From: Boothiomyces macroporosus
Taxonomy: Eukaryota > Chytridiomycota > Chytridiomycetes > Rhizophydiales > Terramycetaceae
DNA length: 64,000 nucleotides
Assembly: GCA_027604185.1 (NCBI GenBank)
Contig: JADGKB010000003.1
Location: 267,674-331,673, forward strand
Reading direction: 5' to 3'
Part shown: one piece after another, positions 1-64,000 of the stretch
Layout: the number at the start of each line of letters is the position of its first letter
How positions within the stretch are numbered: position 1 is the stretch's first letter
Translations under genes and position numbers: made by a program
The notes under the pieces: model-generated
Database searches by the model: none
Seen by the model: the letters and a program-made list of their open reading frames with translations, nothing else
Told to the model about the DNA's origin: nothing

Positions 1-3000
1 AGCGATCTTGAAGCAATCAACAAGCAGTTACTCGTTAGTGCAAACGAGCGATTTGCCCTTGAAAAAACCAATTACCAAGAACAGATTCTAGTTTTGACTG
101 TAGAATGTGATAAATTACGTCAAGTACATTTAAGCTAATTTAGAATGTTGGCGATCTGATCAACGATCGAATTAAGCTGCAAGAAAAATATGACATTTTA
201 GTTTCGAAATCTCATCAAGAAGCAAAAAGTAGAGAAATCCAGGCGGTACCTGATGAACATGAAGATAGTGATCAGGACGAAAACCATTCTTTACTAGCTT
301 CTCGACAAGCTAGTCCTTTGAAGATTCCTGCAAAAGAAAAGGGAGAAAATGAACAGCTGAAGCAGCTTGAACATAGATTGGCAACTTCAAACAAACTTCA
401 ATTCGAATTGAAAAGTAGAGTTGGTGATCTAGAAGAAGTAATAATATACTTATCCTAGCAACTTTGCGCGAAATCCAGAGAGTTTGAAGTGGAAAGGCAA
501 AAGTACATTCAATTGAACGAAAGCTTAAAGGTAAAGAACGAGAAGCTAGATCGAAAAATATCAACTGTTGAACAAAATTACGAAAAATATTTGGAAGAAA
601 CTGAGCCAAAATTGAAAAATATAAAGTATGACCTTGAAACCCTTCGTGAAGTTTACAGAGACACCAAGAATCTTTTGGATCATGCTGAAGAAAAGTTGGA
701 ATTACTCATGGTTGAAAATAGTGGATTAAAGATAAAATACAGCGAATTGGAAACTGAAAATTCTCATCAAACTGCTTCAATAATAGACTTGAACGACCAA
801 CTAGCAAGAAGCAAGCAAAAAGCTGTTGGGTTAGAGAAAGACTTGAAAAATGCTACTTCAAGTATAGACTCTCTGCAGTTGATGATTGCAAGTCAGAACT
901 ATCAAGAGCAGATATCAGAGTTGAAAGCAGAGATTGCAAAGCGAGAGTCTGAATACAATCAGGCAATAGTAATGCTTCATTGGAATATCAGTCAAGCGCA
1001 AACCGCTGGTATTTCTGAAAAGACATCAGAAGAAATGAAGCAGAGTATCCCAGTTGTAGAGCTAGATCAAAGCAGATCCATCAGCATACTTGAATCAATG
1101 GAATCCAGGGACGAAGATAGTATTACCACTTTATCCCGTGTAGCTGTCGATCAACCTCTTTCTAGAGAATTAACGAATACTGACGATCGAGAAACTTCTT
1201 ACGTAACTGCAGACAGTGTCATTCTGGAAAGTCAATTAACTGATTTAAATGAACAAGTGATTAATCTACAACGTGAAATTGATGCCTTGAATGCTTCAAA
1301 TTCTGAATACCACATGGAGATTGTCGCTTCACATTGGTTATTAGGCGAGGTTGGAATTCTCAATTCGAAAGCAGCTGAACGACAGACTACTATTACCAAC
1401 TTGAAGGCGAAATTCAATGATATTTCGGGTAAATTGGCAGCGAAGGATGTGGATATGAAGGTAGCGGAGAGTATCATTTCTCAAAAGGATCTTGCATTGG
1501 CCTGGGCGATAGCGCAGGTAGATATTGATCAAAATCAGAAAGAATCCCAATTTGAAGAGCAAAATATAATAGCTCTTCAAAACGAAAGGGACTTTGCATT
1601 GCTTTCATCCACGCTTTTCATATTTGTTTCTCTCATATTTGGAACTCAGTTGGGACTGAAGGATGCGGAAAAGGTCACTTTGAAGAACTTGCCAAATATT
1701 ACTGATGATCCAAACCAAATACTCATTGAACAACTTTGGGAAGTGGGAGAAAAAGGAATATTGCTTCAACGATTTTGTGAAATGGAACAATCTTTCAAAG
1801 AGCAATCTGAAATGTTCAGCAGGGAGCTTGAAGCGAAATCAGAACTGGCAAAAGAACTAAATCTCACTACAGAGAAATATAGGGCATTAGAAGCTCAACA
1901 TGTTGAAACAAGAAGTTTGGAAACCGGACAAAGTAAATTACTTCTTTCAGTGGAACAGTACGTAAATTTGTTGGAATCAAAAATGAATACTTTGGAGAGC
2001 ACATTGTTAGAGTATGAAATCCTGAAAGAAAAAGACAGCTTAGATATTTCGACATTGGTAAATGTATTGGAGCAGAAAGTGGGATTGGATAAAGAGCTTT
2101 ACAATCACCTCGACATACTCGAACGTATAAACAATGTCATACTTGCCTTAGATGAGTATAAGAAGCATCATTCAGTGGAATTACCTTCACAAAAGTTGGA
2201 TCTGCTCCATAGTTGGTATCAAGGTGATATTGGAATCCTTTATAGTCGCATGGATGAGGAACTCGAGAAATATGTAAATACCAATGAAGCAATTTCTTCT
2301 GATCTAACAAAGAATGTTGAATTGGTAGAATCACTGAAAACTCGACAAGCTGAATTTTCCTCCATACACGATCAATTAAAACAAGACGTGCATCTTAGGG
2401 ATAATCAAAACTTTATCTCCAATGCTTGGCACCAAGGAAACGTGGGGATTTTGAACAATCAACGTCTTGAATTGCAAGAATCACTAGAGACAGTAAAAAT
2501 GTCTGAAGAAAATGCTAAAAAAGAATTGTTAGCACATCAAAATTTGTTGAAAAATTCTGCCCAGGAGATTAATTCCATTCAAGAACGCCATTTCGATTTT
2601 GTCACTACCAGGAACGCTATGGACAATCAAAACTATATTTCCTATTGTTGGAATCAGGCGAATATTGGAATTCTGAGCCAGCAGTTACGGGAAATTGAAG
2701 GCGATAGATTGCTGCTGGAAAAAAGTAGAAATATCATTGCAACCGATATTTCTCAAAATAGCAACGTTTATCAAATGAAGTTAAGGGAAGCTACCGACCT
2801 TTTCTCTAATGAAAGAGATAAGCTCCTTTGCAGCAATGCACAAAAAGATATTTTGAATTGTTGGAATCAAGCCTCAATAGCAATACTACAGTCGGAAATC
2901 ATCCTTAATTCGGTATATGTAGATAGCCATACTGAAAGCTCCACTACAACCAAAAATTTGAACGGTGAAGATCGTTCGATTTTGCACCCTGTTAATAGTG

Positions 3001-6155: not shown

Positions 6156-6282
6156 ATTGCATTTCAATAAAGTCTTTAGTTTTGATATAGTGTTGATTTT
6201 TGTTTCATCGCCATTATTGATAGTCATGGATTTTATACTCTGTCATCCACAGTGAAACAAGAGTTTATTATTTTGGTTGAAT

Positions 6283-7855: not shown

Positions 7856-10800
7856 TTATTCAATTTTCACCAACAAGGTAATCATCTTGAATGGCATATA
7901 CTCAAGTTCCACGGCATTGTCAGTAATTGGGAGCTGGCCGTGTGTTTCTTCAATCACATTAGACAGATAAACCTCAGCGAGTTTAAATGAGCTAGATTAT
8001 TTAAAACTTACCTAGACAAGGTTGCTATACCTCTCCCCCCGTAAGCCTCATACATTCTTACCACAAAGAGTTTACTCTTTTCAAAGTTTTCAGCAGGCTT
8101 GATTGTATCAATCACTAAATTCTTGGCAGTTACATTAAAGAATGCAGCTTCTTGGAATGAGCCAGCGCCTGATAAAATTTCGACTGGTACATTGTACTGA
8201 TAAGCTTCGCGTACCACATCAGATTCCAAGAACGACCCTTTGTGCGGTAGCAGCGCGTACTTGAATGTCTGTCTTCCTAAATCTGCTTTATCATCAGGAG
8301 ATTTCGGTGATCTTAAGATTGACATTGAAATTGTATTGTTATGAACTGAAAAGCCATATTTACTACGTAAAGATTCACTTACCTGTCATTGAGCAATGCA
8401 ACTCCATAGCCATACTCAGAATAATCCACAAACTTGTGTGCACATACTTCAAATTTAGCCATATCCCAAGAATTGTTAAAGTGTGTTGGACGCTGAATGT
8501 ACCCAAATTGGGTCTCGAATGTTGCATAATCACATTCAACATTGACTGGGAACTCCACTTTGATAATCTTTCTGCTCTCTTGCCAAAAGATTTCATTTTC
8601 AAAATTGACGAGTTTGCTTCCTGCAGAAATAGTAGTTCTTTGTTCCAGCGTACTTGTTTTTGATATTGGATGAATAACTTTTAGGACAACTCGAAGAGGA
8701 CCAGCTTCCTCCACGGATATTTTACCTAATCCAGCTTCCCAGGATTTTTCCAAATGATAAATTTCAACATCCCAAGCATCCCAAAATAGAGGAATATCTT
8801 CGTAGAATCTGAATACATTTCCAAGAGAATTGGATAAGACTGTTTCCCTTCCAACTTCTCTGTCAATCAAAGAGAATAGCCTTCCATGTTCATCGAATGA
8901 GGCTTGAATCAACCCATTGTCAACAATAAATCGGTTTGGCAATGATTCCACTATTGTCAATATATTCAAAAACCTAAAACAAAATCATCAGATAATATTT
9001 TTGTAATAGGATTCATGTTCACTACTTCCACTATTTATAAGATCAGCTCTTATAATTGATGGGTGAACGGTAGAAACTCTTACCTTTTACTTGACTATCA
9101 AAAGAAGGGGCAGTTTCTTGAAGCAATACACCAGATAATGGAGCGATTGGTGGAACTTTGATTAACGCTATTTACCATATGCAAGCCCATATTTTTTATC
9201 AGAAGAGTACTGTTGATACTGTACATTGTTTGCAATAGGAATCTGAGCAATATACCCTGGAACTGGCCAAGGAGATAAATTGGTAGCAATGGTTTTGGTT
9301 CCTTCACCCATCAATAATTTCAAAGCTTCCTTTTTCAACTTTGTACCAGACAATGTTACATCTTCGTAAAACTACGTTAGCAGTGAACTACTTTGATTGC
9401 ATCCACGTATACTAATCCAATACTGGACCCTGGTAATACATCATGGAATTGATTCAAGAGAACTAGTTTCCACAAACGATCAATCTCAGCCTTTGGGTAT
9501 GTCTTGGTTTTCTTTTGAGCAAGACACAAAGCCCACAAAATCTCGACTGCCCTGAGCAGGTATTCACAATATCGGTTATACTTTTTCACAAGCCCATGGG
9601 TTGTATAAGTTCCACGATGTAATTCAAAGTAAAGTTCTCCTTTCCAAGTATTCAAACCAGTAGAAGTTGTCTCTAATTCCTCATAAAATTTAGTAGGATC
9701 CCCAAATTTGGTTTGGGATGGAAGTCCTTCAATGTTTCCAAAGCGTTTGATTCTTTCAATCATTGGCAAAAGTGGACCACCACCTCCATCTCCATTTCTA
9801 ATATTAGAATATCATTACCCGTATAATAATAGTGACTTGTTACTATATTGCTTATCCTTGTTGTTTGCTACAGCAAATACTGCATCTTTCACAGAAGCTT
9901 GAGCAGTGTACGTATCTGCTGGTGAGAAATGAGTCAAAACACTGGTGCCATCCAAGCCCTTCCAATAGAATGAAGTATGTGGAAACTTGTTGATATTGTT
10001 CCAAGAAAGTTTTTGAGTGAAAAAGTACTTTAGCCCTGCACTGGTAAGGATTTGAGGAAGTTGAGATGAATATCCAAAAGTATCAGGAAGCCAAAAGACT
10101 GAATGTCTAAATCCAAACTTTTCGTAAAAGTAGTTTTGGCCATACAAGAACTAGTGTCAGTTGCAATTACTTGGCGACAAAAAGCCTCCCCTGATGGAAC
10201 GTTACAATCCATTTCCACCCATGTGCCTCCAATAGGTACAAATCTGCCAGTTTTGACAAGCCCAGTGATTTTTTCAAATAGGCTTGGATATAGCTGTTCT
10301 AACCATTCGAACTGCTGGGCTTGCTATCATTAGTAGAAAGTACTGAAGCGGCAAAAGTATATTCCGGATTTTGCTCCAACAACCTGCACTGAGTTGCCCA
10401 GCTTCTGGCGATTTTTCTTTTTGTTTCATCATAAGGCCATAACCAGGCGGTGTCTATTATTAGTATACTCATTACCAATATGACAATTTCCAATAGCAGT
10501 AATAGCATGTGAAACATAGCCCAATTCCTTCTTGCGTACTTTAAAGAACTTGCTACCAATCTCTTTTGCTGCAACTAAAGTAGCAGGCTCATTATTCCTA
10601 ATCGTGTTTACGATAGAGTTTGCAGTGAATAACGCATCATTCCCAAGCTGCGACTCGACTGGCATTTCTTTGACGATCCCTAACAGCACTTCCAAGTCCC
10701 AGTAAATCGAACGAGCAAGTTCGTTAAAACAGACTAGCTTTACAGTTTTCAATGCAAAGCTCTTGTTTGGATCTGGAGCATTGATCATTCCATTGAATCC

Positions 10801-11286
10801 CGCGCCAAACATGCCATTGGCGCCAACTTCAATGTAAATGGTAAATTTCTAGGTTTAAAGTATAGGTACCTGGCCAGCTGGGGCACCATTGGTCAAATCA
10901 AAGTCTACATGACGATCCAGCCCAAAATCACCAGTTAAGCCCTGCAATGGCTCTCCTTTATCACTCCAAACCAATCCTTCGCAGCTTGGATCAAAGATCA
11001 GGTACACCTTTCTTCCTTCCATACTCTTTGGAATGGTGATTTCCAATTTGAACCAATGAGTAGACCAAGTAGGGGTAATTTGATCCCCTACTTTGGCAGG
11101 AACGTAAACCCCCTTCATTGCCTCGCCAAATGGGATCCTTTGGAGGTTAGGAACAGCGTATTTGGTAATTGCGATTGATTCATCTACGATTTCTTCAAGA
11201 AAAGATTGAAGATTGACGTCGTAAAACATGTCAGATTTGAAGTACTTTTCGATTCGCTCAACAGTAATATTCCGGTGTTTGAGCAT
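7856..11286 (-). CDS. AMS1: Vacuolar/cytosolic alpha-mannosidase, GH38 (AMS1/MAN2C1 type)
   Basis: Hydrolyses alpha-linked mannose from free oligosaccharides. In fungi the AMS1 class is vacuolar and delivered by the Cvt/autophagy route. Twelve exons give 1056 residues, close to yeast Ams1 (about 1080). Introns: 10849-10869, 10454-10475, 10324-10343, 10151-10170, 9798-9818, 9372-9391, 9156-9175, 9031-9083 (53 nt, an outlier), 8951-8973, 8363-8382 and 7992-8011. Visible hallmarks in order: an N-terminal [16 protein letters not shown] region, [17 protein letters not shown] of the class IIC beta domain, the zinc-binding [12 protein letters not shown], the [16 protein letters not shown] nucleophile Asp region, [10 protein letters not shown], and the C-terminal [18 protein letters not shown]. 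No signal peptide is seen, as expected for AMS1. The start is the first ATG, 73 bp from the divergently transcribed dehydrogenase gene. Confidence 0.97.
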
Positions 11287-15926: not shown

Positions 15927-17769
15927 TTATATTTTGATTGAGTCTAATACATGAATTCCCAGAGCTCTGGCCTTTAATCTCATGTTCATATCGCGGGTCA
16001 GCAGCGACCCATTGGATTGTCGCACTTGGTACAATATGGCATCATCAGCAGATTCAAACCCGTCCCAATTTTGCGTAAAGGATGAATGCGCAACGCTGCC
16101 ATCGATTCTTTGAATAATAATAGACTGCCTGCTGGACTTTATATACTGGAAAAGAGCTTTTGCGGTTTTGCTGGTCCTTTCTTTTCTTTCAAGTCCCTTC
16201 AACTCTCCAAGGACAACAGTGGATATCGCAATTGTGTAATTTCCCGATTGAACCAACGCTTGAACTTGCTCCATATTGTCAAGCATGTAATTGGTATCAA
16301 TGAACAGCAACGTATCTTTGGTGAGCTGGAATGATTTCGATAATTGTTGCTTGAGCTAAAATTAACAATGGCATTACCTTTATCAGATGATTGAGCTCTG
16401 AATCATCATCAATTTCATCTTGTACATTCAAATTTGACATTGAAAGGCTGTTTTCCTTCATAGCATCTGGCTCAAAATTGGCATATTGTATATCTTCCCG
16501 TTCGCTTGGTTGTTCTTGTTCTTCTTTGTCAAATTCTTGGAAATCAAATTCTTGAGCTCCAGCCTCATTGAATATTCTCTCTTTTGACTCAACTATTACT
16601 CCATTTACCAGCCCTCTTTTCCTTAACAGCGCAGTTAACAATCCTAATCTGTCTTGCAAATTGTCATTCGTATTACATTTAGTGTTATCAAGCAGTTTTT
16701 GCAAAGGTTCAAATCCAATAAAATTTTGATCAGCTGCCATTGGGGTTTTGGAAATTACCTCTTCCAATTCTAAACCAGTCGTATCAGTATTGAACTTTAA
16801 TTCTACCTCCAATTCAATCTTTTCCAACAAACAATAGATTAACAGAATCTGTAGGTGTTCATGCTCTTTCTTTTGCAAGAGCCATTCACATACTTGTTGG
16901 ATCAAGCTCTTTGAGAATCTCTTCATGATTGAAAGTGTTTCTTCCTTGTATTTTGTGGGGAGTATATAATCTAATCCTATACATATCGGCACGACATATT
17001 CAGGAAATTCAAACGCTCTTTTATATTTATACAGCTGTTTTTCAAACTTGTCGGCATTGACTTTGGAGTACAAAATCTCTGCAAGTTCTAAAAATGGAAA
17101 CTGTGTCTTTCCTGCAGCAAGAGAATTAAGCAGTGATTCCTTGGCATTTACGAATGGCTGCTTTACACATAATGATCTGATAAAATAACAGCTTGAAGCC
17201 AGATATTTTTTTTGCATTCCTGATATTACTCCCAATTGATTCCAAAACAGTCCATTAGTCGGCTGGATTTGCACAGCTTTGTGATACTCTGTTTGCGCCA
17301 ACCCCAAGTAGTACTCAGCAGATTCTGGAAAGAAAAATGTAGCGCTGTAACGGTACAAGTCTCCACGGTGACAGTAATACAACCCAGTAAATTTTGTTTC
17401 TAGTTTAATCAATGTATTGTAATCTTCTAAAAGCGCTTCAATCAATGGAATGAAATCTTTTGTATGTTTCACAGTCTTTATCGCAGTATAGACACCATTC
17501 TTCCACATCCTGTTATTCAAATCATATTTCTGAATAAATTTCGGATCAATATTAATCAACTGAATGTACAATTTTGAAATTGTGATCCTCTGGTCGCTGT
17601 TCAATACAGGAGCAGCCAACACTTTTTCCAATTCCATTATCGATTTGTAAATCTGTCTGGCATCAGTCATATCCACATTATCAGCATCCACTTGCTCCTT
17701 CTTTGGGATTATTTTGATATTCTTTTGGTTTGGGTCATACAGCCTTTGGTTTTTTGGCATAAAATTCAA
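15927..17769 (-). CDS. EST1/SMG6-like protein with TPR/14-3-3-like region and PIN nuclease domain
   Basis: Two exons joined by a 22-nt intron (16356-16377) give 606 residues. The N-terminal two thirds is a helical EST1/SMG5-7 type region: KFTGLYYCHRGDLYRYSA and LFWNQLGVISGMQKKYLASS are typical of the 14-3-3-like/TPR hub. The C-terminal about 130 residues form a PIN domain with acidic residues in LLFIDTNYML, FESADDAIL and LLTRDMNMRLKA, matching the three catalytic aspartates of SMG6. The expected role is endonucleolytic cleavage in nonsense-mediated decay, possibly with telomere functions. It is much shorter than animal SMG6, lacking the long N-terminal disordered part. Before splicing, the PIN domain looks like a separate gene; the intron removes the stop between them. 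Confidence 0.88.
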
Positions 17770-41425: not shown

Positions 41426-43613
41426 ATGCCGCCAAAGAAAGACAACAGTTTAAATGCTGAAGAAGTAGTCTCTGATTAACAAAGGTGTTGCAAGCTGTCC
41501 TTGTTGCTGATAGTTTCAACGAGCATTTTAGGCCAATTACCTTTTCAACCCCAAGAGTAATATCTCACTCATTTAGTGTTTGATTCCCATCGCAAATGTT
41601 CCCTTAATTGAGTATGCTTTGGAGACGCTCGCAGCATCCGGGGTTCAGGAAATATTTATCGTTTGCTGTGCACATTCGGAGCAAGTCAAAAGTTATATCA
41701 TGTAATCAAAAGCGTAATTTACAGGAATTCTCGCTGGGGAAAGTCAATTATGCCTTTGGTAGAAATAATTGTTTCCCAAGAGCTGCGTTCTATGGGTGAT
41801 GTCTTGCGGGATATGGATGCGAAGCAAATTCTACAATCTGACTTTATTTTAATGTCTGGGGATGTAGTGTCAAATGTCAATCTAGCACCATTGGTGGAGG
41901 AACATAAAAAGAGAAAGTTGGCGGACAAGAATTTGATTATGACTCTAGTCACTAAACAAGCAAGTGCAAATCATCCAACCAGGTCGAAAGCTGAGGAGGA
42001 ATTGTTTGTATTGGACACCAAAACAAATGAATGTGTTCATTACGAGGCATATAGGCGTTACCCCCCAAGAAAGAATGTATCCTTGAATCCAAGGATCTTT
42101 AAAACTCATCCGGATATCGTTATTCATAATGATTTGATTGATTGCCAGATCGATATTTGCTCAATTGAAGTAAATTCGTAATAACACAAGGTTCCAGCTT
42201 TATTCACTGAAAATTTTGACTATCAGGATATCCGCAAGGACTTTTTGAAGGGGATTTTAGAGTCAGAATTACTTGGAAAGTCTATATATTGCCATATTTT
42301 ACAGAACGAATACGCTGCGCAGGTTTCTACCTTGCAAATGTACAATTCAATAAGCAAAGATATCATGTTGAGATGGGTATATCCACTTGCCCCTGAAAAC
42401 ATCTTTTACCGAAATGATGGAGTAATATCACATTCGCTTCATAACATCTACAAAGGAGAAAAACTCACTTTGGATAGATCTGCTACATTGACAGAAATGG
42501 TAGTTATTGGAAGCGGAACAAAAGTTGGTGCAAACACAAAAATTTCCCATTCAGTTATTGGTGAGAACTGCACCATTGGTAATCTTTGTTAACATTAGGT
42601 GCAAATGCTGTAATCGAAGGATCCTATATTTTTGCAAATTCTGTAATTGGCGACAAATGTGTAATTTCCAAGTCTATCGTTGGCGAAAATGTTCAGATTC
42701 TCGAAAAGGTAACATTAGAGAATGGGTGTGTATTAGATTTTGGTGTTTGTGTTGGCCCGAATGTCAAATTAGAACCTCGAACAAGAATTTCTGCTGAAAA
42801 ACACTCGGACGAATACCATGATGATTCTGAAAATGAACTAGGTACAATTAGCGTTAACTTTTAGAGTATGATGTTGTTGGAAGAGGGGGAAGAGGCTATG
42901 TTTATAATCCAGATTATTCGGATGATGAAGATGAAATAGATCTGAGAAATGTTTCCAGAAGCTACTTAGGTTTTCGAAAATTGACATAGACTATGAATCT
43001 CCTTCTGAATATACTGAGGCAGATCAAGAAACCGATCCGGAAACCGATGGTGAATACGAGGAGGAGGAAGGAAATGGTTATTATTTCTAATTCTAGAGTG
43101 GTATGTAGAAGTTGAGCAAACTATTCAAAGAGCATTTGATGAAAACCATTCAGCTGAAATCGCTGTGCTGGAACTAAACACACTAAAAATGGCAATGAAT
43201 ATTACATTCCAGGACCTTAGACAGATAGTTTTCCCTGCAATATTGAAATTAGTAATGAAGGGCGGGAACAACAAAGACCGACAAAAGGTAGTAATATGAA
43301 TAACCGAAGGTGGTTGCAAAATGGTTCCCTGTTTTGGTCAAGTTCACGCATTCGGATGATGATCAAATGCATTTGCTGAATCTCTTGCAGCAATTTTTGG
43401 TGGATAACCCAGCTCTCATTTCATTCTCACCACAACTCATAATGGCTGGTTACAATATTGACCTTTTTAAAGAAGAAATGATCTTAAAGTGGTATGAAAA
43501 TGGTCCACCAATCAACATCAAGGACGCGGTAATATTAAATTTTATATTAGGTTTTACCGTTAATTAAATGGTTAAATGAGGCGGAAACCGAAAGCGAAGA
43601 CGAGTCTGATTGA
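41426..43613 (+). CDS. GCD6: Translation initiation factor eIF2B epsilon subunit
   Basis: The catalytic subunit of the guanine-nucleotide exchange factor for eIF2. Eleven exons give 658 residues. Introns: 41463-41482, 41557-41576, 41702-41724, 42170-42190, 42579-42598, 42842-42864, 42970-42989, 43077-43096, 43288-43309 and 43529-43550. The nucleotidyltransferase-like domain shows LQAVLVADSFNEHFRPI, ELRSMGDVLRDMDAK and FILMSGDVVSNVN. Left-handed beta-helix hexapeptides follow (TKISHSVIGENCTIGANAVI). The C-terminal W2/HEAT domain closes with IKWLNEAETESEDESD, the aromatic/acidic box of eIF2B-epsilon. The intron just before that end is needed to restore the box. The gene runs from 21 bp beyond the PPOX ATG. 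Confidence 0.97.
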
Positions 43614-48260: not shown

Positions 48261-49661
48261 TTAAACGCTCAAAAGTAGTCTGGCTGGATCTTCGATTGCT
48301 TCCTTCACTTTCACAAGGAAAGTAGTAGCTTCACGACCATCAATCAAACGGTGGTCGTAGGTAAGAGCAATATACATCATTGGTCGCACAACTACTTGGC
48401 CATCAACAACAACAGCTCTGTCTTTCACTGCATGCATACCCAAAATTGCTGATTGTGGTCTGTTAATGATTGGGGTTCCATATAGGGATCCAAATACCCC
48501 ACCATTAGAGATTGTGAAAGTACCTCCAGCCATGTCTTCAACTGCGATTTCATTATTTTTGGCCTGGGTTAAAGAAAAGTACCTTCTTTCCTAATGCAGC
48601 CAATGCTTGTTCCAATTGAACAATGTTTAAAGTTTCGCAATTTCTTAAAACTGGTGTAACCAATCCTTTAGGAGTGGACACAGCAACCGAGATGTCCACA
48701 AAATCAGAGTAAACAATGTTTTCTCCTGGAATTAACAAAACAAACCTTCAATTCTGGCATTAATTGCTGGAATTTCCAAAAGGGCTGAAGATGCGGCCTT
48801 AAGGAAAGCTCCCATGAATCCAAGCTTTACTCCGTGCTTATCCAATACAGCATCCTTGTATTTTTTACGCAAGCTCACCAAAGCACTAGCATGAGATACC
48901 ACTTACCTCATATCTACTTCGTTGAATGTAGTCAATGAGGCCGCAATATTCTGAGATTCTTTTAGTCTTTTTGCAATAGTGCTTCTCATTCTGTTCATCT
49001 TTACTGATCTTTCTGTTCGAACTCCAGGAATATATCCAGGCAAATCATCAATTGCGACTGGCTTTGCGCTTGGTGCTACTGGTTTTGGAGCTGAAGGAGC
49101 AGGTGGAGGGGGTGCAGATTTCGCAGCTGGAGTAGGGGTTGGTGCAGCAGCTGGTTTAGGTGGAGCAACTGGGGTTGGCTCAGGCTTGGTTTCTGCGACA
49201 GTTGGTTTACTTTCAACTGGGGCAGATTTTTGACCTTCAGGAACATCCCCCAATTCAATTTTAAATAAATCTGCTCCAACAGCAACAGTGTCTCCCTCCG
49301 CAGCAAACAAATCAAGCACCTTTCCACTTTCTGGAGCGTTAACTTGTACATCAATCTTTCATTAAAAATCTTCAAACCTTGTCCGTTTCAATAGTTGCAA
49401 TCTGTTCATCACGTTCAACATATTCCCCAATTTCTACAATCAGTTATTTAATACTCTTGTGCCATTGTGTCAGAGTTCCTTCGGTAATGGACTCTCCCAT
49501 GGATGGAGTCTTGATAGTCTTTTCGGTGGCTACATTAGGAAATATTTACCCATAAATCTTAGCTGTTGGAATGCCGGAGCCAAGTTTCTAGCAGCCCTTG
49601 AGATAATTGCACGCTTTACTGCTCCCTGCAGTGAAAGAGTCTTGTTTAACAGAGATGACAT
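48261..49661 (-). CDS. KGD2: Dihydrolipoyl succinyltransferase, E2 of 2-oxoglutarate dehydrogenase
   Basis: Transfers succinyl groups to CoA in the mitochondrial TCA cycle. Seven exons (introns 20, 21, 22, 21, 20 and 19 nt) give 425 residues. A Ser/Arg/Ala-rich presequence ([20 protein letters not shown]) is followed by the lipoyl domain, [14 protein letters not shown] to [18 protein letters not shown] with the lipoyl Lys in ETDKIDV. A Pro/Ala linker comes next; like KGD2 of other fungi it lacks a clear E3-binding domain. The catalytic core has [55 protein letters not shown] and the active-site [11 protein letters not shown]. Divergent from ATG16L with only 34 bp between ATGs. Confidence 0.97.
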
Positions 49662-49695: not shown

Positions 49696-51599
49696 ATGAC
49701 CGCAATAAAGCCAAAATGGGAGAATTCGATCCAAAGACAACTGGTAGTGCTGCGGGATATAAACAACCAGTTTGCATTCTTTGGCGGTAGCATTCCTTAA
49801 TGTAGATAACGACCTGCTCTACGTTGCTAATGAGCTGTCCAAAACCAAGATTGAAAATCAAAAGAATATTGAACTCCTCACGGAAAAACAATTGGAAATA
49901 GAGCGGAATGAGATGTAAGGGTTGTTAATGAAGGTTGATCCACCAGCATCCAAAGATTGTTGATCTTCAAAATGAAATTGCAATGTTGCAGCAGGAGCAG
50001 AAGGATTTCTACAAAACAAACTCTACAAATGCTCAGCGCATTGTTTCTCTCATTGACAATGTGCAAGTTTTGCAGACCGAGCTTACCCAGTTAAAAGCAG
50101 AGTAGACAATAGTTAACAAAGACGAGATTCCCTGGCAAAGACCAATGCTTCATCTGCAATAAGGGTTAAAGATCTTGAAGAACTCATTAATGAGAAAGAT
50201 CGGGTAATTCAAATTCTACGAGATGAATTGCAGGCACATCAGTTGGAATTGGTCCAGAGAGAAAGCCAACTGGAAAATGCCCAAGCCAAAGTGAAAGAGT
50301 TGGAAAATGAAAACCAGGTTATTGTAAAGTAATATTAGGACCTTATTCGTCGGTGGATTTTAGAAAAAGAAAAGGAAGCCCAAAAGATTAATGAAGTAAA
50401 TGAATTTGTCGAAAATACCTTAAAAACAAAGGACTCCATGTCAAACAGAGTAACCAGTGTTAATTATAGGTACTTTCATTGTTCAAGAGCACTTCTAAAG
50501 CAAGTGCGGTGACTGAAGAAGAGTTCACTACCCCCACAATGTCTGTCTTACCGTCAATTTTGAAAAAACAATTTGTAAGTGGTATTAAGATTAGAAAAAG
50601 GTTCATGACGATGATATCAACTGTATGGGGATTAGTAGCGATGGAAACCTGCTGGCCACTGGAGGTAATGACAAAAAACTAGTAATTCACGATATTCAGT
50701 CTGGTACACAACTTTAACCAAAGGGACTCCAAAAGCAATATTGACTGGATCTTTGCAGGCAATCATGTCTGTGGCATTTAGCCGTATGGGAGATATGGTT
50801 TTGGCATCGTCTAATGATAATTCCACCAAAATATGGGATTTGAATTCCAAAAGAATAATTGTATGATTAAATTAACTATAGCACACTTTTAATGGCCATT
50901 TACAAAAGATCTATTCTTCGAAATTTATCGACTCTAATACTATTGTAAGACCCACTAATCTAGATATCCGGCTCACACGATCGCACCATCAAAGTTTTAT
51001 TTTCCTAATATAGATTTGGGATTTGGTTAAAGGATATTGTACGAAAACAATTTTCACAATGTCATCGTGTAATGATTTGGCCATTTTGACTCCTGACGGG
51101 TTATTTATATCTAATTTAGGTCGCTCATTGCCAGTGGCCACCTGGATAATAACCTGCGTATTTGGGATGCTAAATCTGGTAAAAGCGTAAAAGAAATATC
51201 TGGAATACACTTTGGGCAGATTACTTCTGTTCAAGTTTCACCGGATTATCGAAAGGTGATGACTACTTCAAGGGATAACACGATAAAAATTATGGATACA
51301 CGAATGTTTATGACTCTAAACACATGTATATCACCTGGATTCAAAGTAGCGTCAAATTGGGCAAAGTCTTGTTTTAGCTCAGATGGAACTTATGTTGCGA
51401 GCGGGTCAGCCGATGGTTGTGTGTATATTTGGAAGGACTCGGAATTGGTTACCACTCTTTCAAAGCATAGGTAAGTGATATTGACTTTAGTGCTGGGGTA
51501 TGTAGCGTTGCTTGGTCGCCTACCGAAGGCTCAAGCGTTTTCTCGGCTTCTGATAAAGACAAGGTTGTGAATCAATGGGGAAATGATAAAATACAATAA
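49696..51599 (+). CDS. ATG16: Autophagy protein ATG16 with WD40 propeller (ATG16L type)
   Basis: ATG16 dimerises and recruits ATG12-ATG5 to the phagophore to direct ATG8 lipidation. Thirteen exons (twelve introns of 19-21 nt) give 554 residues. The N-terminus has an ATG5-binding-like helix (IKPKWENSIQRQLVVL) and then a long coiled coil. DLIRRWILEKEKEAQKINEV matches the ATG16 dimer region RWMAEKAQEANRLN. The C-terminal about 300 residues form a WD40 propeller: ISGSHDRTIKIWDL, IASGHLDNNLRIWDAKSG, VMTTSRDNTIKIMDTRM and VASGSADGCVYIWKDSEL. APGFKCG-like SPGFKVA appears as in animal ATG16L1. Yeast Atg16 lacks the propeller, so this is the ancestral animal-type form. Confidence 0.95.
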
Positions 51600-51614
51600 A
51601 TAATTAGGATATAT

Positions 51615-55826: not shown

Positions 55827-58800
55827 ATGGAAGACGAGTATTCACACCAGCAAAGTACAGCTAAAAAGGCGAAAGAGTATATCGCAAATAATCACATCCA
55901 TGAGTTATTCGAAGTGATCTTGTGGCTAACTCTAGAGTATAGCTGTTGGAATTACATACCATCAACCAACAGATCCTATTCATTTCATGGAAGATTGTTT
56001 AAAGAAGGTTAGGCAAGACAATCTACTCACTGTTGCACCTTATCAGAAAGGATATTTGAGATGGGATTCCTTCTTACCACCAAAAGAGGAGCATAAATCA
56101 ACTTATTTATTGGAAAATCAGAAAGATATTTACAGGAAATTGTACAACCCAACAACTATAGTTCCTCCAATTAAGCCTTACGTAAAGGAGACGCCAAATA
56201 ACCCCCTAAATGTCAAAGTTTTAAATTTCAGAACATTGCCGGATATAATGTTGAGTGCACCGCCTATAAGAAAATCAAAGGCGTGGACCAATATAGTTTT
56301 CGTGATAGGAGGTCCAGGATGTGGAAAGGGAACTCAATGTGAAAGAATCGCAAAAGAATATAATTACCTACATCTATCAGTTGGAGATTTGCTAAGAAAT
56401 GAAGCGACCAAGCATACAACTACTGGACACGAAATTAGTAGATTGATTGCGGAAGGAAAGATTGTACCTATGGTACCTTTAAAATAATGTTTAGCATATT
56501 ACTTTGAAATTGTTAAACAAAGCAATGTTATTAAATGATATGTGTCAAGGTTTCCTCATCGATGGTTTTCCAAGACAGTTGGATGTAAAACAGCTCTAAT
56601 TTTAGCAAGCAATTGAATTTGAAGAGACCGTAAATAGTTGATAACCAAAGGTTGCTAAACCAAGATTTGTACTGTATTATGAATGTGGAAAAGAATTATT
56701 AGAAAAGAGAATCCTTAAACGAGGGCAAACTAGTGGTAGAAATGATGACAACATTGAAACAATCATGAAAAGATTTAGGACTTTTGAAGAGAAAACTATG
56801 CCAGTGGTTGAATATTACGAAAAGAAAGATCTCTGCCATAAAGTTATGATAATTAACCATTAGATATTGGCCGAAGGGGGAATTGAAGAAATTTTCTTAG
56901 AAACTAAATTGTACTTTGAGGTAACACCGTTGTACCATCAAAATATAGTGTTTGTTTTGGGAGGACCTGGTTCTGGTATTCTATTATTAACACTAGGAAA
57001 AGGAACTCAATGTGAGAAATTGGCAGAGGAGTTCCAGCTAGTTCATCTTTCAACGGGAGACTTACTTAGAGAAGAAGTATCAATAAGGTCCAAAATTGGA
57101 ATCGAAGCAGAGAAATTAATGAAAGAAGGTTTGATGGTCCCAAAGGTAGCTTAATTATTAATTTTAAGAAATTCCTTTTGGATATTCTGAGGAAAAAGAT
57201 ATCTGAAAATATGGGTGCAGTTGGATTTTTAATTGATGGTTTTCCTCGAACTTTGGACCAAGCAGATGATTTCGAGACTACAATTGGACCATGTCGTGCA
57301 GTATTGGCATTCGACTGCCCTTTGCAAGTTTTAGAAAAACGGCTAATTGAAAGAGGAAAAACCAGTGGAAGAGCAGATGATAACTTGGAGACTATCAAGA
57401 AAAGATTTGCAACTTTCAAAGAGCAAAGTTTACCAGTAATTCAGCATTACAAGCAAAAAGGGAAGGTGGTAGAAATATCTTCTACTGCAGAAATTCACGA
57501 GGTTTATGAAGAATCAAAAAAGGTTTTCCTTAGAAAATATCCTTGTAAACATCGAAACATTATCTTTGTTCTTGGTGGCCCAGGAGCAGGGAAAGGCACA
57601 CAATGTGCATTTATAGTGAACGAATACAAATTTAAACATATATCAACCGGAGACCTTTTGAGAAGAGAGATAGAAAATCAGACACCAATAGGTTTGGCTG
57701 TAACCGGTTATGTTTCAAAAGGACAAAATGCACCAATGGTAAATTATCACCAACATAGAACATAATTGTTGAACTTTTAAAAACTGAAGTATTGAATAAC
57801 TTAGATGCACCAGGAATATTAATTGATGGATTTCCAAGAGCGATGGGTAACATAGTGATTAATGTTCTAGATCAAGCGTTGGAGTTTGAAAGAGTGGTAA
57901 ATAGTTTCATAACATTAAGATAGGTCGGCCACGGTTCGTTTTGGGGTACAGCTGCCCTTTAGAAATTTTGGAAAATCGTTTGATTGAAAGAGGAAAGACA
58001 AGTGGAAGATTGGATGATAATCTTGAAACTATTCGTAAAAGATTTCACACCTTCCAAACTGAGAGTATGCCGGTTTTGCATTATTACAATTTGAAAAAGA
58101 AGCTTATCAGAGTTCATTATTACTAAATTAGATATCATCTACTTCGGCCCCAGAGTTGATTTATGATAAACTGAAAAGTGAGATTTCTCTTGCTGTGCCA
58201 GATTTGCCTTTTAAAGATAAAGAAATTGTATTTGTGCTGGGTGGTAAGGGTGGATGTAATATTAGGGCCTGGTTCTGGTAAAGGTACACAATGTGAGCAG
58301 ATAATCAAGAATTTTGGATATATACATATTTCAACCGGAGATTTACTACGTGAAGAAGTGAACCAAAAAACGGAACTTGGCAAACAATTGGAAGCTGACA
58401 TGAAAGAAGGAAAAATGATTTCAATTGTAACAGTTTTTGATGGTAGGATGTGATAATGAATTTGCTGTGCAAAAAAATGGAGAACACCAGAAAATTAAAT
58501 CCAAGAGGATATTTAATCGATGGGTATCCTCGTACAATGGAACAAGTGTATTTGGTATTTTGTTCTAATTCAGTTTGAGTCTACGATTGCAAATTGTACT
58601 TTTGCCCTATACTTTGATGCTTCACGTGAAACACTTATTAAACGACTTCTTCAAAGAGGGAAAACCAGTGGAAGGGCTGATGACAATGAAGAAAGCATCA
58701 AAAAGAGGCTGACAGTTTTCAATAATGAGTCTTTACCAGTGATACATTACTTTTCACATCAAGAAAAACTTAAAAAAATTAATGCCGAAAATGATCCTTC

Positions 58801-58846
58801 CAAAGTTACATTAGAAACATTGCGTTTATTTGAAGAATTAAAATAA
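55827..58846 (+). CDS. Tetra-domain adenylate kinase with N-terminal RIIa-type docking domain (AK5/axonemal type)
   Basis: Interconverts AMP/ATP and ADP. Fifteen exons (fourteen introns, 20-28 nt) give 903 residues. The N-terminus [37 protein letters not shown] is an RIIa/Dpy30-like dimerisation-docking domain as in AK5, formed only after removing intron 55914-55935. Four adenylate kinase domains follow, with P-loops [12 protein letters not shown] (56308), [12 protein letters not shown] (split by intron 56976-56996), [12 protein letters not shown] (about 57574) and [11 protein letters not shown] (split by intron 58244-58265). Each has STGDLLR-type and DGFPR segments and a [14 protein letters not shown] lid region. 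Multi-domain adenylate kinases with docking domains occur in cilia and flagella, so this suggests zoospores. It overlaps the VPS18 3' end. Confidence 0.94.
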
Positions 58847-61745
58847 ATCTCTACCCGATTCTAATACTTGATCTATCGTTTTAATCATTAAATCGCCACA
58901 CAGCACACATTCTTCAGATATCAACTCTTCCAATTCTTCCTACCATCAAGAGCAATTACCTTCTTGTTCTCAACGGCTTTTAGCTTGATCGCTTTTACAG
59001 TGTCTGTTTTAATCTAAATTGTCAATCATAACTTACAGCCTCTTTCAAGCAATCTGAATGAAAAGTATGATTGCATGGGAATACATGAAATTGTTTGGTC
59101 ATTAGGTTTCTTCCACAATAATCACAACTCTTTACAATAGGTATCATTGCATATTTCGTCTTTAAACTCCTGATGTCTTTTCTAATTAATTCAGAATTGT
59201 TTGCCGAATCATCCAACTCTGCTGATAATTGCTGAAGATTTTCGTTGTAATGGCGAAGTGCTTCACACAATTCCACCTTCAAATCATCAATCAGAACAAA
59301 ATCTGGAAAGAATTGCATAACTTCTTCAACTTTCAGATTGCCCTCTTTACATAGTTCCAGCGCACTAAATTAGAGATTCGAGACCTTTTGAAATCATTAT
59401 TCTTTACAACCACATGTTTAGCTAGCAGAAGCCATAATTTCTTTCTGGTTTCCAAGTCATCTTCAATTTTGTATATGATTGATTTAGCTAATTCCAGATC
59501 ATTAAACTATTTAGTTAGTTATTACCTTTAATGCTAAAATTATCGCCTCCTCCTCCATATGAAGCATCCCATATAGCTGAACACAAGGTTGAATCAGTTT
59601 TTTACCATGACACAGTCGCAATGCGAATTGCAAGTCAAAGATTGGATCCATATGCTTTCAGTTAGGAAGGGGTTACCTGATTTGAAATGAAGTTCAACAC
59701 TTTCTCCAGATTTGACCCAGAATCCTCTACGTACAGCTGGAATAGGTAATTGTGAATTACCCTGTCCCGATTACCCAAACGAATAATGTGCTCCAGATAA
59801 GTAATCACTCTATTTTGCTGTCCGTCAGCCTTACAATAATGTAGCATTGATGGCAATAAGTTTCTTGGCTCAAGGAAATCGCATCTGGTCCAAATTACTA
59901 TTGTTTCATCTGGAATTTTTTGGATGAGAATTGGTGAATACTTATAAAATAGCTCTGGATTCTTTTGCGTTGCCATTACACTTAATACATCCTTAAAATT
60001 CTGATTACGGAGATGAACATCACATATAGTACTAGTGTCGTTCACCAATTCAGCATAATAGAGGAGAAGATCTTCCCTTCCATGTTGTTTCAGCAAACTA
60101 TATACAGTACCAGAATGAAACCTATCCTATTGTTAAATGACGTCACCCTATAATTCCGAATAAAGGATTTAATTTTATCCAGGTAAGATTGTTGATTTTT
60201 TCCTCTCTGTAAATCCTCTTGTAATTCCAGTTCACTTAATAGTAATTCCAATTGCCAAGAAAGCAAAATTAATAGCTGAGAAACATCTGATTGCTTTGTA
60301 AGTGCAATTTTCTTCATCAGATAACTTTGTAGAGCTTCTGAATTTTCGAGCGCCGAAAATCTGATTGCAACCTGCTCCAACGGCAAACTTGTGTTTGCGA
60401 ATAAATCTGCTGCAAGTGAATAGTCTTTTTGAGAGTAACAATGCTCAGCATATGCTACAGATATTATGCCTTTGGACTCGGTGGTCTACATTAGCAATAG
60501 ATACAGTTGCAACTGCCATGGCTTCTTTGTACTGCTTCCTGTCCACAAATATTTTCCAAATATTCTTTCCTTCATCTGTAATGATAATCTCATAAAGCGA
60601 CTGGTTTGTAGCTATCCAAAAAGTCTTTTTCAATTCATCTTTTAGCAAACCAATCACAATTTCCTCAAAGCCCTAAAGTTAGCATCGTTTACCAGTGGAA
60701 TTGGAATGGTGTAAATAAGTTTATCTTCGAGCTTGTTTACTACAATTATATTTGTTGGGGTGAGAATGATGTAGTGATATTCAGTGGTAGTGAAATCAAT
60801 TATTTCAATATCCGCCGGGTATGGTTGAAGTTGTATATTCTCCAAGAGAGAATCTCCAATTTCTTTACCGTCAATAATTTGAATTTTCCCACTGTATACT
60901 CCAGGAGCTAATTCAGGAAACTATTACTTGTTGGCCAAACCAGATATTCTGGATATAAAAAAACAGAGCCATTTAAACTCCTTGATTGAATCCGGATACC
61001 CAATTTGTTTGGCCCGCCAATCATTTCTTGAATATCTAAATCAGTAAAGTGTACCACAAACTGTGTCCGGATTATCCAAAAGATTCAAAAATTGGACATC
61101 TTCCAACGCTTTAAAGACTGATAAATATTGGTAAAGATGGGTCTTTGAAGATATGTACACAATCAAGATACTGCCTGCAATGAAATAATACAATCCCGTA
61201 ATTGGAGTTTTTTCAGTGAATACTGCAGTGATAGACTTTTCAAATCGCTTGTCATTAGTCAGTATCGCATCATATACAATACCACTAACAGTTCCAATTA
61301 AAATGGAGATTTTTCTAGAGTGATTCGACCACGCAACACCAGTAATTTGATCTTTAATTTTAGTGAACAGCTTTGGCTTTAGGTCACTTGCAATATAGTA
61401 GTTATCCTTATGGCAAGATACTATGAGCTGATCCGCTAATGGAGAGAAATATAATGCAGTGATTTGTTGATCTTTAGTTGGGAGGTAAATGTCTCATTAA
61501 CAAACCTGTACCTTTGATGGAATTCGGTTTATCCAAATCAATCCACAGGATCCGGCAATCTTTTAGGGCTAAAACCAGGATGTTTGAGGAAACAGATCCT
61601 GCTAATATTTCTCCCGGGAAATTGAACTGCACCTTGTCTATTATAAACTGATCATTCTACGTTTAGTCTTATTTACTAGTGCTGGCTGATCTGGCTCTAT
61701 TTTTTCTTGAATTGTGGTTGTTTCGATGTGTTCGAACAAAGTCAT
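58838..61745 (-). CDS. VPS18: VPS18, core subunit of HOPS/CORVET tethering complexes
   Basis: VPS18 anchors HOPS/CORVET on endosomes and vacuoles and carries a RING-H2 finger. Thirteen exons (twelve introns, 19-23 nt) give 887 residues. The N-terminal beta-propeller begins MTLFEHIETT and includes LALKDCRILWIDLDKP. The alpha-solenoid contains ELFYKYSPILIQKIPDETIV, matching human VPS18 QLFYKFSPILIRHIP. The C-terminus has VMQFFPDFVLIDDLKVELCE, then CDYCGRNLM..FPCNHTFHSDCL (RING-H2) and ELISEECVLCGDLMIKTID as in human VPS18. The stop codon reads on the plus strand at 58838-58840, inside the end of the adenylate kinase gene, so the two coding regions overlap by 9 bp. Confidence 0.96.
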
Positions 61746-61795
61746 AATTGGTCAACGAGGCTGGAAATTTTCACCTCGATTTTTTTAAATTGAAA

Positions 61796-62044
61796 ATGTC
61801 AGTCATCAGACGAATTTTAACAGTTGGAGAAGAAGGTAGCGAATCACTAATAAAGGAATTAGAAGAAAGCAAGTTCAAGAGCGTTTGTTCCTATCAGTAA
61901 AGTTGCAATAACCAGTAGCAAGAATCCAATTTGCCAATGTACGTAAGAAAAAAGTCTGATGGATTACCATTCGCTGCTTCACTCTTGTTGGGAGCTGGTA
62001 GCTTGGCTTGCACTGTTGTATTGATCAAGGATTTCATTGTGTAA
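61796..62044 (+). CDS. Cytochrome c oxidase subunit VIIa-like protein
   Basis: Three tiny exons (introns 20 and 22 nt) give 68 residues: a short basic N-terminus (MSVIRRILTVGEEG), then RRKQVQERLFLSQESNLPMY, then a single transmembrane helix (AASLLLGAGSLACTVVLIKD). RLFLSQESNLPMYVRKK aligns with mammalian COX7A KLFQEDNEIPLYLKGG, so a complex IV accessory subunit of the inner mitochondrial membrane is the likely product. It starts 50 bp from the divergent VPS18 ATG. It is far too small and fragmented to appear as an open reading frame, which raises the chance of missed small genes elsewhere. Confidence 0.8.
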
Positions 62045-62102
62045 GAGAATACCTAATGTAGCAAACACAACTGATTACGTGCAATAATAAATATCTTTTT
62101 AT

Positions 62103-62705
62103 TCACTCCTTCTTGGACTTTTTCTTTTCCTTTTTGGCTTTCTTTGATTTCTTTGCTTTGGTTTTTACTTTGATTTCTTTGATCTTGTCCGCCATCTCTG
62201 CCCTTTTTAGTTTGCCATTCTGCTCTCCTCTAGCACCTTTCCTAGCGGTTCTGCCCTCGCATGCAAGGAACAGCTCTTCGTCTGTGATTTTAATTGAATA
62301 ATCTTTCTTTTCTTCTTTCGTTTCGCTTTCTTAGAAATCTTGTACCCTGCTTTAACGAATGCCCCGTATAGCAATTTCTTTTCTTGTTCTTTTGATTCGT
62401 CTTTTTCTATTTGGATTCCCTCGTCTGTGTTGTCAATTTTTATCGTTGCGGACGCTTTGTTGAATATATGATCCCTGCCTTAATGTCATATTACCACCAT
62501 TGAAAAGACCATTCGTCTGACTTGGCTCCTAGCTACGTTAGTATTAAATACCCCGTCCGTGTCATTTTTGACTCCAACTGATATCGCTTTACTGATGCCC
62601 TCTGTGATAAATACTTTGGATACCGCTATTCTTTCCTAGACCTTGCCCTTTTTTCCACCCATATTTCTTTAGTTGCCTTTCAGCAAAAGAGTCTTTTGAG
62701 TCCAT
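62103..62705 (-). CDS. GPATCH4: G-patch protein, GPATCH4-like
   Basis: A nucleolar G-patch protein that likely activates a DEAH helicase in rRNA/snRNA processing. Five exons (introns 22, 19, 20 and 20 nt) give 173 residues. MDSKDSFAERQLKKYGWKKG..GLGKNSEGISKAISVGVK is a complete G-patch, spliced across intron 1. FQWWDHIFNKAS matches human GPATCH4 FPWWDHVFNKTA. ELFLACEGRTARKGARG matches LLQACEGRTAHKAARLG. The C-terminus is a Lys-rich (KKSKKAKKEKKKSKKE) nucleolar tail. It converges on COX7A (58 bp between stops). The last intron is needed to enter the tail frame, so the gene is invisible without splicing. Confidence 0.9.
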
Positions 62706-62839
62706 CCAACAAAAAAAAAGAAAAATTCATGAATCAAAAGTCTATTCTTACATTTTAGTTTGTTGTCTCATTAATCTGGGCTTGGATATTTTTAATGATC
62801 AGATGTCAATCCGACCTAAACTCCGATTCAATCGGCTAA

Positions 62840-62847
62840 TATAAAAA
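62840..62847 (+). promoter_or_regulatory. TATA-like element before the chitin-binding protein gene
   Basis: TATAAAAA lies about 23 bp upstream of the ATG at 62871. It is the best-placed TATA-like sequence in the window. If functional it implies a very short 5' leader, which fits the compact genome. Confidence 0.35.
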
Positions 62848-62870
62848 CCCCACGCGTTTTGGAATACCAA

Positions 62871-64000
62871 ATGTTCATTAATTTATTATTGGGATCGACT
62901 ATAGCTCAATCCAAGATTTGGCTAACGTAAGAAATTACTAATAAAAGATGTCCTCCTGCCTTTGACACATCACCAAACAGAGCTGGGTTACAAGTTGGAC
63001 CTTGTGAACAGTTTACATCATCCTCATATACGCTAGATGTGACTGCTGGCTCTCGAATGAAGGTAGCCTGGCTCAGCGGTAATCGTGGTGGTGGGTTTGT
63101 AAAATTGTCTCTTGCTCCGTTCTCTTCTATGAACCAAGCTACATTTGATTCCAATCTATTAAAGATTTCATGTTTTGGATATGATCAGCGGCCTCTTAGG
63201 GAAAGTAGAGATCTGTGCAACCACCCTTGCAATGCCAGAGCCGGATGTGCCTTCCAATCCTCTCTTAATGACAATCAAAGGTATGACACTACTATTACCG
63301 TACCTTACAATTTAAATGGGAATTATGTCCTGCAATTAGAAGCATACTCTGGAATCTCTAGCGCACCAATATATTCTTGTGCAAGCTTGAACATCATTGG
63401 AGGAAACCCCAGCTTAACTTGCAATGCTCCACCTTCTGTACCGTCTGTTGCAAGCTGTCAAAATTACGGGCCATTTACTTTACAATCCATCTCAAATGGA
63501 CTACAGGCTGGGTCATTTTGCTACACGCCTACTTCGGTATACTTTATCTAAACCTAGGCTGGGACAATCGATCAGGATATAACTGCTGTACCTATTAATG
63601 TTGATTGTGATGGACGTTCCTCGTGCCATATTGCAAAGAATTACTCCCTTTGCCAAAGCGATATCACTCAAACAATTGTAGATCCATATGGACTACCACA
63701 CGAAACTGGATGTACTCTCACTGCTAGCCCGCCTACACCGTATACTGCGGCACCAACACCAACTACTGCACCTTCTGGAACATGTGGAAATGGAGTTTCC
63801 TGCCCAGCTGGTCAGTGCTGCTCTCAATACAATTACTGTGGTACAGATGACAGTTTTTGTGGTGTTGGTTGCCAGCCTTTGTATGGAAATTGTAACAGTA
63901 ATCCTGTTCCTACTACTGCACCTTCTGGAACATGTGGAAATGGAGTTTCCTGCCCAGCTGGTCAGTGCTGCTCTCAATACAATTACTGTGGTACAGATGA
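62871..64000 (+). CDS. Secreted cell-wall-type protein with tandem CBM18 chitin-binding modules (3' partial)
   Basis: Three exons are visible (introns 62927-62947 and 63537-63557, both 21 nt). The N-terminus (MFINLLLGSTIAQSKIW) looks like a short signal peptide. A Cys-rich domain of about 170 residues follows (MKVAWLSGNRGGGFVKLSLA, CNHPCNARAGC, VPYNLNGNYVLQLEAYSG). It resembles the beta-sandwich domains found before carbohydrate-binding modules in zoosporic fungi, but I cannot name it. A second Cys-rich segment and a Pro/Thr linker lead to CBM18 modules, CGNGVSCPAGQCCSQYNYCG and so on, from 63783 and again from 63933. These hevein-like units bind chitin. The gene runs off the right edge with more modules likely. 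Confidence 0.88.
63762..64000 (+). repeat. 150-bp tandem repeat encoding CBM18 modules
   Basis: The unit starting at 63762 recurs at 63912 with a period of 150 bp (50 codons). The 89 bases available in the second copy are identical to the first. This points to a recent tandem expansion or gene conversion, and the array probably continues past the window. Confidence 0.95.

Follow-up and report, generated by a model that had tools for sequence, protein, structure and literature searches.

Boothiomyces macroporosus, a member of the chytrid family Terramycetaceae in the order Rhizophydiales, was examined for ultrashort introns in a 64-kb stretch of its genome (bases 267674-331673 of contig 3, referred to as the window) within a 15.2 Mb assembly of 216 contigs. 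B. macroporosus very probably removes U2-type introns of 19-22 nucleotides (nt) by means of a largely standard major spliceosome, in a mode of intron definition governed by two rulers and shaped by compactness and nonsense-mediated decay (NMD). Sequence tests with decoys, a branch motif and restored proteins support assigning these segments to the U2-type spliceosomal introns. Some tens of thousands of such introns would be recognized by intron definition, each being composed of one ruler from the 5' splice site to the branch A (mostly 14-16 nt) and a second that runs from there through the first downstream AG (mostly 5-7 nt). A polypyrimidine tract after the branch would have no room. Pressure for compactness may have brought the introns near the sum of their recognition elements, and those with a length divisible by three (3n) would mostly be kept when they bear a stop, so that retained copies could be cleared by NMD.

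Length distribution and genome-wide spread

A preliminary description of the window, made from its letters, had proposed genome-wide use of introns of about 20 nt with a mode at 20. The proposal was examined in 264 kb from 21 places, comprising the window plus 20 further 10-kb stretches taken from as many contigs. Genes were predicted with a homology-free Viterbi gene finder whose codon statistics were trained on long open reading frames only. In the motif-free run, any donor-to-acceptor segment was accepted as an intron at a flat penalty and with uniform lengths of 10-60 nt. With GT..AG ends 200 segments were obtained, 100 of them at 19-22 nt, whereas each of nine decoy dinucleotide pairs gave 130-182 segments with 4-17 in this range. 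When splice motifs were learned from the data under a uniform length prior of 10-120 nt, 308 of 550 introns fell at 19-22 nt (43, 155, 70 and 40 at 19, 20, 21 and 22 nt, respectively). Introns outside the peak were thinly spread, at about 2 per length, and many of them we take to be false bridges between genes. The modal length was 20 nt, below 25 nt. The peak held across the window and the 20 sampled loci, in agreement with the proposed genome-wide use.

The prior of the final gene model favours 17-25 nt; this model was thus used for gene models and motif statistics only and provides no evidence for the length peak. It contained 552 introns, of which 475 were of 17-25 nt. In the window it gave 175 introns (140 at 19-23 nt, 6 at 17-18 nt and 29 of at least 24 nt); many of the 29 bridge neighbouring genes in our judgement, which was made on the group and not on each call individually. 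Predicted introns of 18-23 nt made up 0.82 of all those in the window; among the 20 sampled loci their proportion lay between 0.25, at a locus where 4 calls were made, and 1.0. The density was 1.71 per kb. Extrapolation of this density to the assembly gives an estimate of about 26,000 such introns. Genes for spliceosome components located elsewhere carried predicted introns of similar size: 19, 20, 19 and 19 nt in U2AF2, 21, 22 and 24 nt in SF1, and 21, 20 and 23 nt in Slu7.

Junctions in conserved proteins were examined in four genes of the window. At the gene for alpha-mannosidase (predicted at 7856-11286; 96% identity to the GenBank B. macroporosus protein, P0001), gaps were counted pairwise within ±5 residues of each junction in 59 homologues used out of the 120 listed. 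Nine of the 11 junctions were gap-free in 46-59 of the 59. The remaining two junctions, at a 53-nt intron and at a 23-nt intron paired with it, were gap-free in 0 and 4 of the 59, respectively. The 53-nt segment, 9031-9083, is probably not a separate intron; it would be the first part of a single 133-nt intron, 8951-9083, in line with the GenBank protein. Between that model and the present one, 7 of the 11 junctions agree, and at 2 of the other 4 the GenBank model lacks residues that relatives carry.

The VPS18-like gene (58838-61745) was compared with the four homologues found, whose own sequences show damage in several places; every one of its eleven introns of 19-23 nt was gap-free in one or more of them. 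Two calls were rejected here. A 40-nt call of the gene finder at 61472-61511 should be 19 nt, as two homologues carry the residues between. A 24-nt 'intron' at 59737-59760 is coding, its 8 residues being present in P0122, P0123 and P0124 (in one with a single change), while the fourth homologue is scrambled there. Junctions in dihydrolipoyl succinyltransferase (DLST) and eIF2B epsilon were judged by eye in printed PDB alignments (7q5q_B and 5b04_I, respectively). Four of 6 in DLST and 7 of 10 in eIF2B epsilon were clean; the other two and three, respectively, fall in variable regions or close to small gaps.

From the four genes we removed the paired calls of 53 and 23 nt in alpha-mannosidase, the VPS18-like calls of 24 and 40 nt, and three introns predicted at the end of the eIF2B epsilon part or past it; with the corrected 19-nt intron of the VPS18-like gene added, 37 introns remained. 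All were of 19-23 nt, with 6, 19, 5, 4 and 3 at 19, 20, 21, 22 and 23 nt. The uniform-prior peak, the failure of the decoy pairs and the agreement of homologues at most junctions bear out the proposed 20-nt class; inserted residues were absent from the homologues at most junctions checked and present at 59737-59760. The preliminary description had also listed about eight introns of 24 nt or longer. Longer introns do exist, but at least two of those listed do not stand as given, the 24-nt segment being coding and the 53-nt one doubtful. Its further statement that the coding length of every gene is a multiple of three is a consequence of how the frames were restored.

Two distances and the reading frame

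The 475 introns of 17-25 nt were used to derive the sequence elements. A was found at position 3 in 85%, and position 5 was T in 43% and G in only 19%; the commonest start was GTAATT (55 of 475). The preference for T over G at +5, despite a canonical U1 5' end, indicates weak U1 pairing at this position. An expectation-maximization (EM) search found the branch motif YTRAY, complementary to GUAGUA of U2, upstream of AG. The GT and AG ends were prescribed in the finder, but the nine decoy pairs failed to give the length peak; the TAAY/CTAAC-type motif before the acceptor, noted in the preliminary description along with these ends, agrees with YTRAY. A good site was present in 453 introns. Of these, 375 had the branch A at nucleotide 14, 15 or 16, 387 had a tail of 5, 6 or 7 nt (counted from the branch A through the AG), and in 425 the acceptor was the first AG downstream of the branch A. 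The lariat loop would accordingly be about 14-16 nt at these predicted branch points. The learned 5' and branch motifs are U2-type; no search was aimed at U12.

Since the acceptor motif of the finder spanned the last nine bases, the tail length could be circular, and the distances were recounted in the motif-free introns of 19-22 nt (n = 100). Strict YTRAY was present in 63; its A lay at 14-16 in 58 of these, and 57 had a tail of 5-7 nt. In the homology-checked genes, A was at 14-16 in 25 of the 26 introns with strict YTRAY. In decoy TG..AG segments of 17-25 nt, YTRAY occurred in 10 of 26 and its A was at 14-16 in only 1 of the 10. An alternative would be that the short segments arise artificially when frames are restored, through assembly errors or arbitrary GT..AG choices that mend frameshifts. 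Frames were indeed restored by cutting segments, and the two VPS18-like calls proved wrong. However, an artefact would not explain why decoy pairs give no peak, why the branch geometry emerges in a motif-free search, or why the independently annotated P0001 agrees at 7 of 11 junctions, with homologues favouring the short intron at 2 of the other 4. We consider this explanation very improbable.

In a core set of 387 introns (A at 13-17, tail of 4-8 nt), the two distances were barely correlated (r = -0.05), so that the constraint appears to act mainly on the two rulers. A length of 20 was composed as 14+6 (86 introns) or 15+5 (80 introns). A slight shortage at 21 nt would fit either fewer 3n introns or their poorer detection. 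An element score was reached by 303 of the 424 predicted introns of 19-22 nt. Predicted exons, 216 kb in all, held only 8 segments of 18-24 nt that attained it, and 31 lay on their antisense strand.

An in-frame stop was present in 93 of the 105 introns of 21 nt as against 186 of the 319 introns of 19, 20 and 22 nt. The scan of 216 kb of predicted exon revealed 3 hidden intron-like 21-mers at a score met by 76 of the 105 21-nt introns; when 10 hidden stopless 21-nt introns were added, the contrast stayed (Fisher p 1.3e-5). The bias is compatible with selection through NMD, which may act on retained copies. The SMG6-like gene mentioned in the preliminary description was located in the window as an Est1-like gene with a PIN domain, PF10373 and PF13638 both being above their cut-offs; its presence and the stop bias lend the NMD proposal indirect support.

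Several observations weigh against the account of ultrashort introns built on two rulers and screened by NMD. The branch points are motif-based predictions and are unmapped. The tail was 5-6 nt in 9 of the 10 TG..AG decoys with YTRAY, presumably because the same acceptors are used. The two distances are not fully independent (chi-square p = 0.03), the combination 15+6 being found 66 times against 80 expected. Averaged over three frames, stops would occur at 0.69 in 21-nt introns and 0.62 in those of 19, 20 and 22 nt, and composition thus accounts for a small part of the stop bias. Stopless 3n introns are hard for the finder to detect, and the stop test is partly biased in consequence, within the limit set by the exon scan. 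The gene finder made two errors in the VPS18-like gene, and an intron as long as about 133 nt is present in the alpha-mannosidase gene.

Spliceosome components and the Isy1 N-terminus

Components of the splicing machinery were searched for in the assembly. The 5' end of U1 is canonical, AUACUUACCU, the U1 match scoring 68.8 bits, just below the Rfam cut-off of 69.5. The branch-recognition sequence GUAGUA is intact in both U2 genes, and the single U6 gene has a canonical ACAGAGA. In U2 and U6, suggested for examination in the preliminary description, the recognition elements are thus canonical, and U2AF2 is present with an RNA-binding pair (RRM1-2) that aligns to human U2AF65. SF1, Prp18 and Slu7 were each present as a family match, and Yju2 as a family match from position 1. 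The start of Cwc25 is canonical with an intact GGG plug, MGGGDLNLKKSWHP. Slu7 and Prp18 are not known to matter except where the branch and the acceptor are far apart, and their loss had therefore been expected; as both are present, the expectation was dropped. A Stentor-like alteration of Cwc25 had also been expected, but its start is unaltered. So far, the parts of the splicing machinery that were checked look ordinary except for Isy1.

Two side observations concern these genes. The U2 genes, at G000:C80:60682-60874 and G000:C178:9607-9797, share the same branch-recognition region and have diverged 3' halves. Two Cwc25-type matches with identical scores, G000:C49:3542-3652 and G000:C100:5137-5247, stem either from a duplication or from haplotype copies retained in the assembly.

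Segments this small are unusual for spliceosomal introns in fungi, and on account of their size, removal by non-spliceosomal means was considered, from DNA as internal eliminated sequences or from RNA by a tRNA-type endonuclease. The segments are, however, present in the assembled DNA, they have GT..AG ends, a U1-like 5' site and a YTRAY branch at a fixed place, and U1, U2, U6, SF1 and U2AF2 are all encoded in the genome. Removal by such means is extremely unlikely, and spliceosomal excision of U2-type introns is preferred.

Isy1 lacks its widely conserved N-terminus, MARNEEKAQSML. All four Isy1 matches of the assembly map to one place, G000:C39:29935-30720, the only one found, where the gene start is a prediction. 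Isy1 of B. sp. JEL0838 is likewise without MARNEEKAQSML. For comparison, 120 homologues listed out of 265 were inspected. The strict N-terminal motif was found in 71 of the 120; among the other 49, 33 by a loose rule, and a few more by eye, begin at an inner methionine. A 15-residue N-terminal block was then scored, the median being 65 in the 86 homologues with at least 20 residues before the landmark. The B. macroporosus protein scored 8 under one gene model and 15 under another, and shuffles gave a median of 6 with a 95% point of 14. In the 75 homologues with at least 24 residues before the landmark, B. sp. JEL0838 was the lowest (8). The next two were a protein in which an insertion follows MARTEEK (16), and Globomyces (26). 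Homolaphlyctis, which belongs to the same order, Rhizophydiales, scored 63. A search for the missing start on the plus strand, over 1.8 kb around the gene start, gave no better match (best 17 of 89). The predicted start adjoins very short predicted introns.

These scores raise the possibility of a specific cause for the same introns, namely that loops as short as 14 nt could be accommodated only once Isy1 had lost its N-terminus, a part located at the branching active site. The low blocks of B. macroporosus and JEL0838 against the median and against Homolaphlyctis point in this direction, as does the report, in the passages of PMC9505925 drawn upon here, that the N-terminus is not conserved in Stentor. 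The correlation is confined to two lineages, the gene start is predicted beside tiny predicted introns, and the Cwc25 plug, missing in Stentor, is intact in B. macroporosus. Such a cause is possible but doubtful. Equally tentative is a broader proposal in which Isy1 would act as a gate on minimum length: loss of its N-terminus, which projects into the active site, independently in the chytrid and in Stentor, would admit 14-nt loops and allow a genome-wide collapse of introns down to the summed length of their recognition elements, the Cwc25 plug being lost as well only at the tighter 10-nt loop. We regard this proposal as the less likely outcome. The Isy1 N-terminus is nevertheless the single candidate part to which the comparison points.

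Relation to known systems and features of the window

The following comparisons draw on passages of the cited papers. In Stentor coeruleus, introns are of 15-16 nt, Slu7, Prp18 and the Cwc25 plug were not found and the Isy1 N-terminus is not conserved (PMC9505925); its authors caution that BLAST can miss distant homologues. Boothiomyces resembles Stentor in its near-uniform, ultrashort, AT-rich GT..AG introns with a fixed branch A, a tail of about 5 nt and a divergent Isy1 N-terminus. The two differ in size and signals, Stentor having 15-nt introns with the branch A at nucleotide 10 and no strong consensus, and Boothiomyces 20-nt introns with the A at 14-16 and a clear YTRAY. Introns occur in 18% of Stentor genes as against several per gene in the Boothiomyces models. 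Slu7, Prp18 and the Cwc25 plug, reported missing from Stentor, are all present in Boothiomyces, leaving the Isy1 change as the only one in common.

Introns of the Bigelowiella natans nucleomorph, at about 18-20 nt, are of the same size class (PMC12316389, PMC5014332), but they reside in a relic nucleus, whereas those of Boothiomyces are in a fungal nuclear genome. Paramecium and other ciliates also have short introns, and their 3n introns are enriched in in-frame stops; Paramecium introns are about 25 nt compared with about 20 nt in Boothiomyces, and the deficit of 3n introns reported for ciliates is at most slight here (PMC5014332). A 23-nt intron from the intron-poor genome of Trichomonas vaginalis was described in 2025 as among the shortest known, with only those of Stentor (15 nt) and Bigelowiella (18 nt) being comparable in the passages available (PMC12316389); most predicted Boothiomyces introns are shorter than 23 nt. 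The comparison of the window's introns with nucleomorph and ciliate introns in the preliminary description is fair, given the published 15-16 nt of Stentor and 18 nt of Bigelowiella. The intron lengths are near the smallest known in any organism. With nearly all tested splicing factors classical, the chytrid would be a natural setting in which to test, more cleanly than in a ciliate or a relic nucleus, how small an intron a standard spliceosome can process.

A search of openly licensed literature, at the level of titles and abstract starts, found no account of short introns for Boothiomyces or for other members of the Rhizophydiales; subscription papers or database pages may hold one. In PMC11210171 'Intron' occurs only as a company name, and in PMC3207900 the word is absent. 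Within the same search, no fungus with introns mostly of about 20 nt was found described. The data are already public, as seven of these introns are contained in the GenBank alpha-mannosidase model. Annotation matters in this context: a large intron survey left out introns below 30 nt, according to the passages of PMC10639083 consulted, and Boothiomyces and Terramyces GenBank proteins (P0001, P0121-P0123) have lost or distorted residues beside some of the ultrashort introns. Because of this damage, published proteomes of these chytrids may hold many such errors.

Coordinates of introns and other features in the window
Feature	Gene	Position	Strand	Observation
20-nt intron	alpha-mannosidase	7992..8011	-	gap-free in 53/59 homologues
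20-nt intron	alpha-mannosidase	8363..8382	-	58/59; adjoining 17 conserved residues absent from P0001, present in P0002-P0005
probable single intron, ~133 nt	alpha-mannosidase	8951..9083	-	19 residues between absent in P0001 and most aligned homologues
20-nt intron	alpha-mannosidase	9156..9175	-	46/59
20-nt intron	alpha-mannosidase	9372..9391	-	56/59
21-nt intron	alpha-mannosidase	9798..9818	-	59/59; adjoining SLLLYG absent from GenBank model
20-nt intron	alpha-mannosidase	10151..10170	-	57/59
20-nt intron	alpha-mannosidase	10324..10343	-	56/59
22-nt intron	alpha-mannosidase	10454..10475	-	58/59
21-nt intron	alpha-mannosidase	10849..10869	-	54/59
gene with Est1 and PIN domains	Est1/SMG6-like	15927..17760	-	PF10373, PF13638 above cut-offs
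predicted 22-nt intron	Est1/SMG6-like	16356-16377	-	gene model
20-nt intron	eIF2B epsilon	41465..41484	+	clean by eye against 5b04_I
20-nt intron	eIF2B epsilon	41557..41576	+	by eye against 5b04_I
21-nt intron	eIF2B epsilon	42170..42190	+	by eye against 5b04_I
20-nt intron	eIF2B epsilon	42579..42598	+	by eye against 5b04_I
19-nt intron	eIF2B epsilon	43291..43309	+	by eye against 5b04_I
19-nt intron	DLST	48564..48582	-	clean by eye against 7q5q_B
21-nt intron	DLST	48886..48906	-	by eye against 7q5q_B
22-nt intron	DLST	49356..49377	-	by eye against 7q5q_B
21-nt intron	DLST	49434..49454	-	by eye against 7q5q_B
gene	coiled-coil and WD-repeat	49716..51599	+	twelve predicted introns: eleven of 19-21 nt, one of 62 nt
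24-nt coding stretch, not an intron	VPS18-like	59737..59760	-	0/4 homologues gap-free when removed
20-nt intron	VPS18-like	60127..60146	-	4/4 homologues gap-free
19-nt intron	VPS18-like	60486..60504	-	3/4
20-nt intron	VPS18-like	60908..60927	-	4/4
19-nt intron	VPS18-like	61493..61511	-	next 21 nt encode 7 residues found in P0122 and P0124, not in P0121 and P0123

The coiled-coil and WD-repeat gene looks ATG16-like by eye, a name which we assume for it. On the plus strand at about 55936-58846, Pfam ADK (adenylate kinase) matches were obtained in all 4 of the 4 exons tested, apparently representing several kinase domains in tandem.

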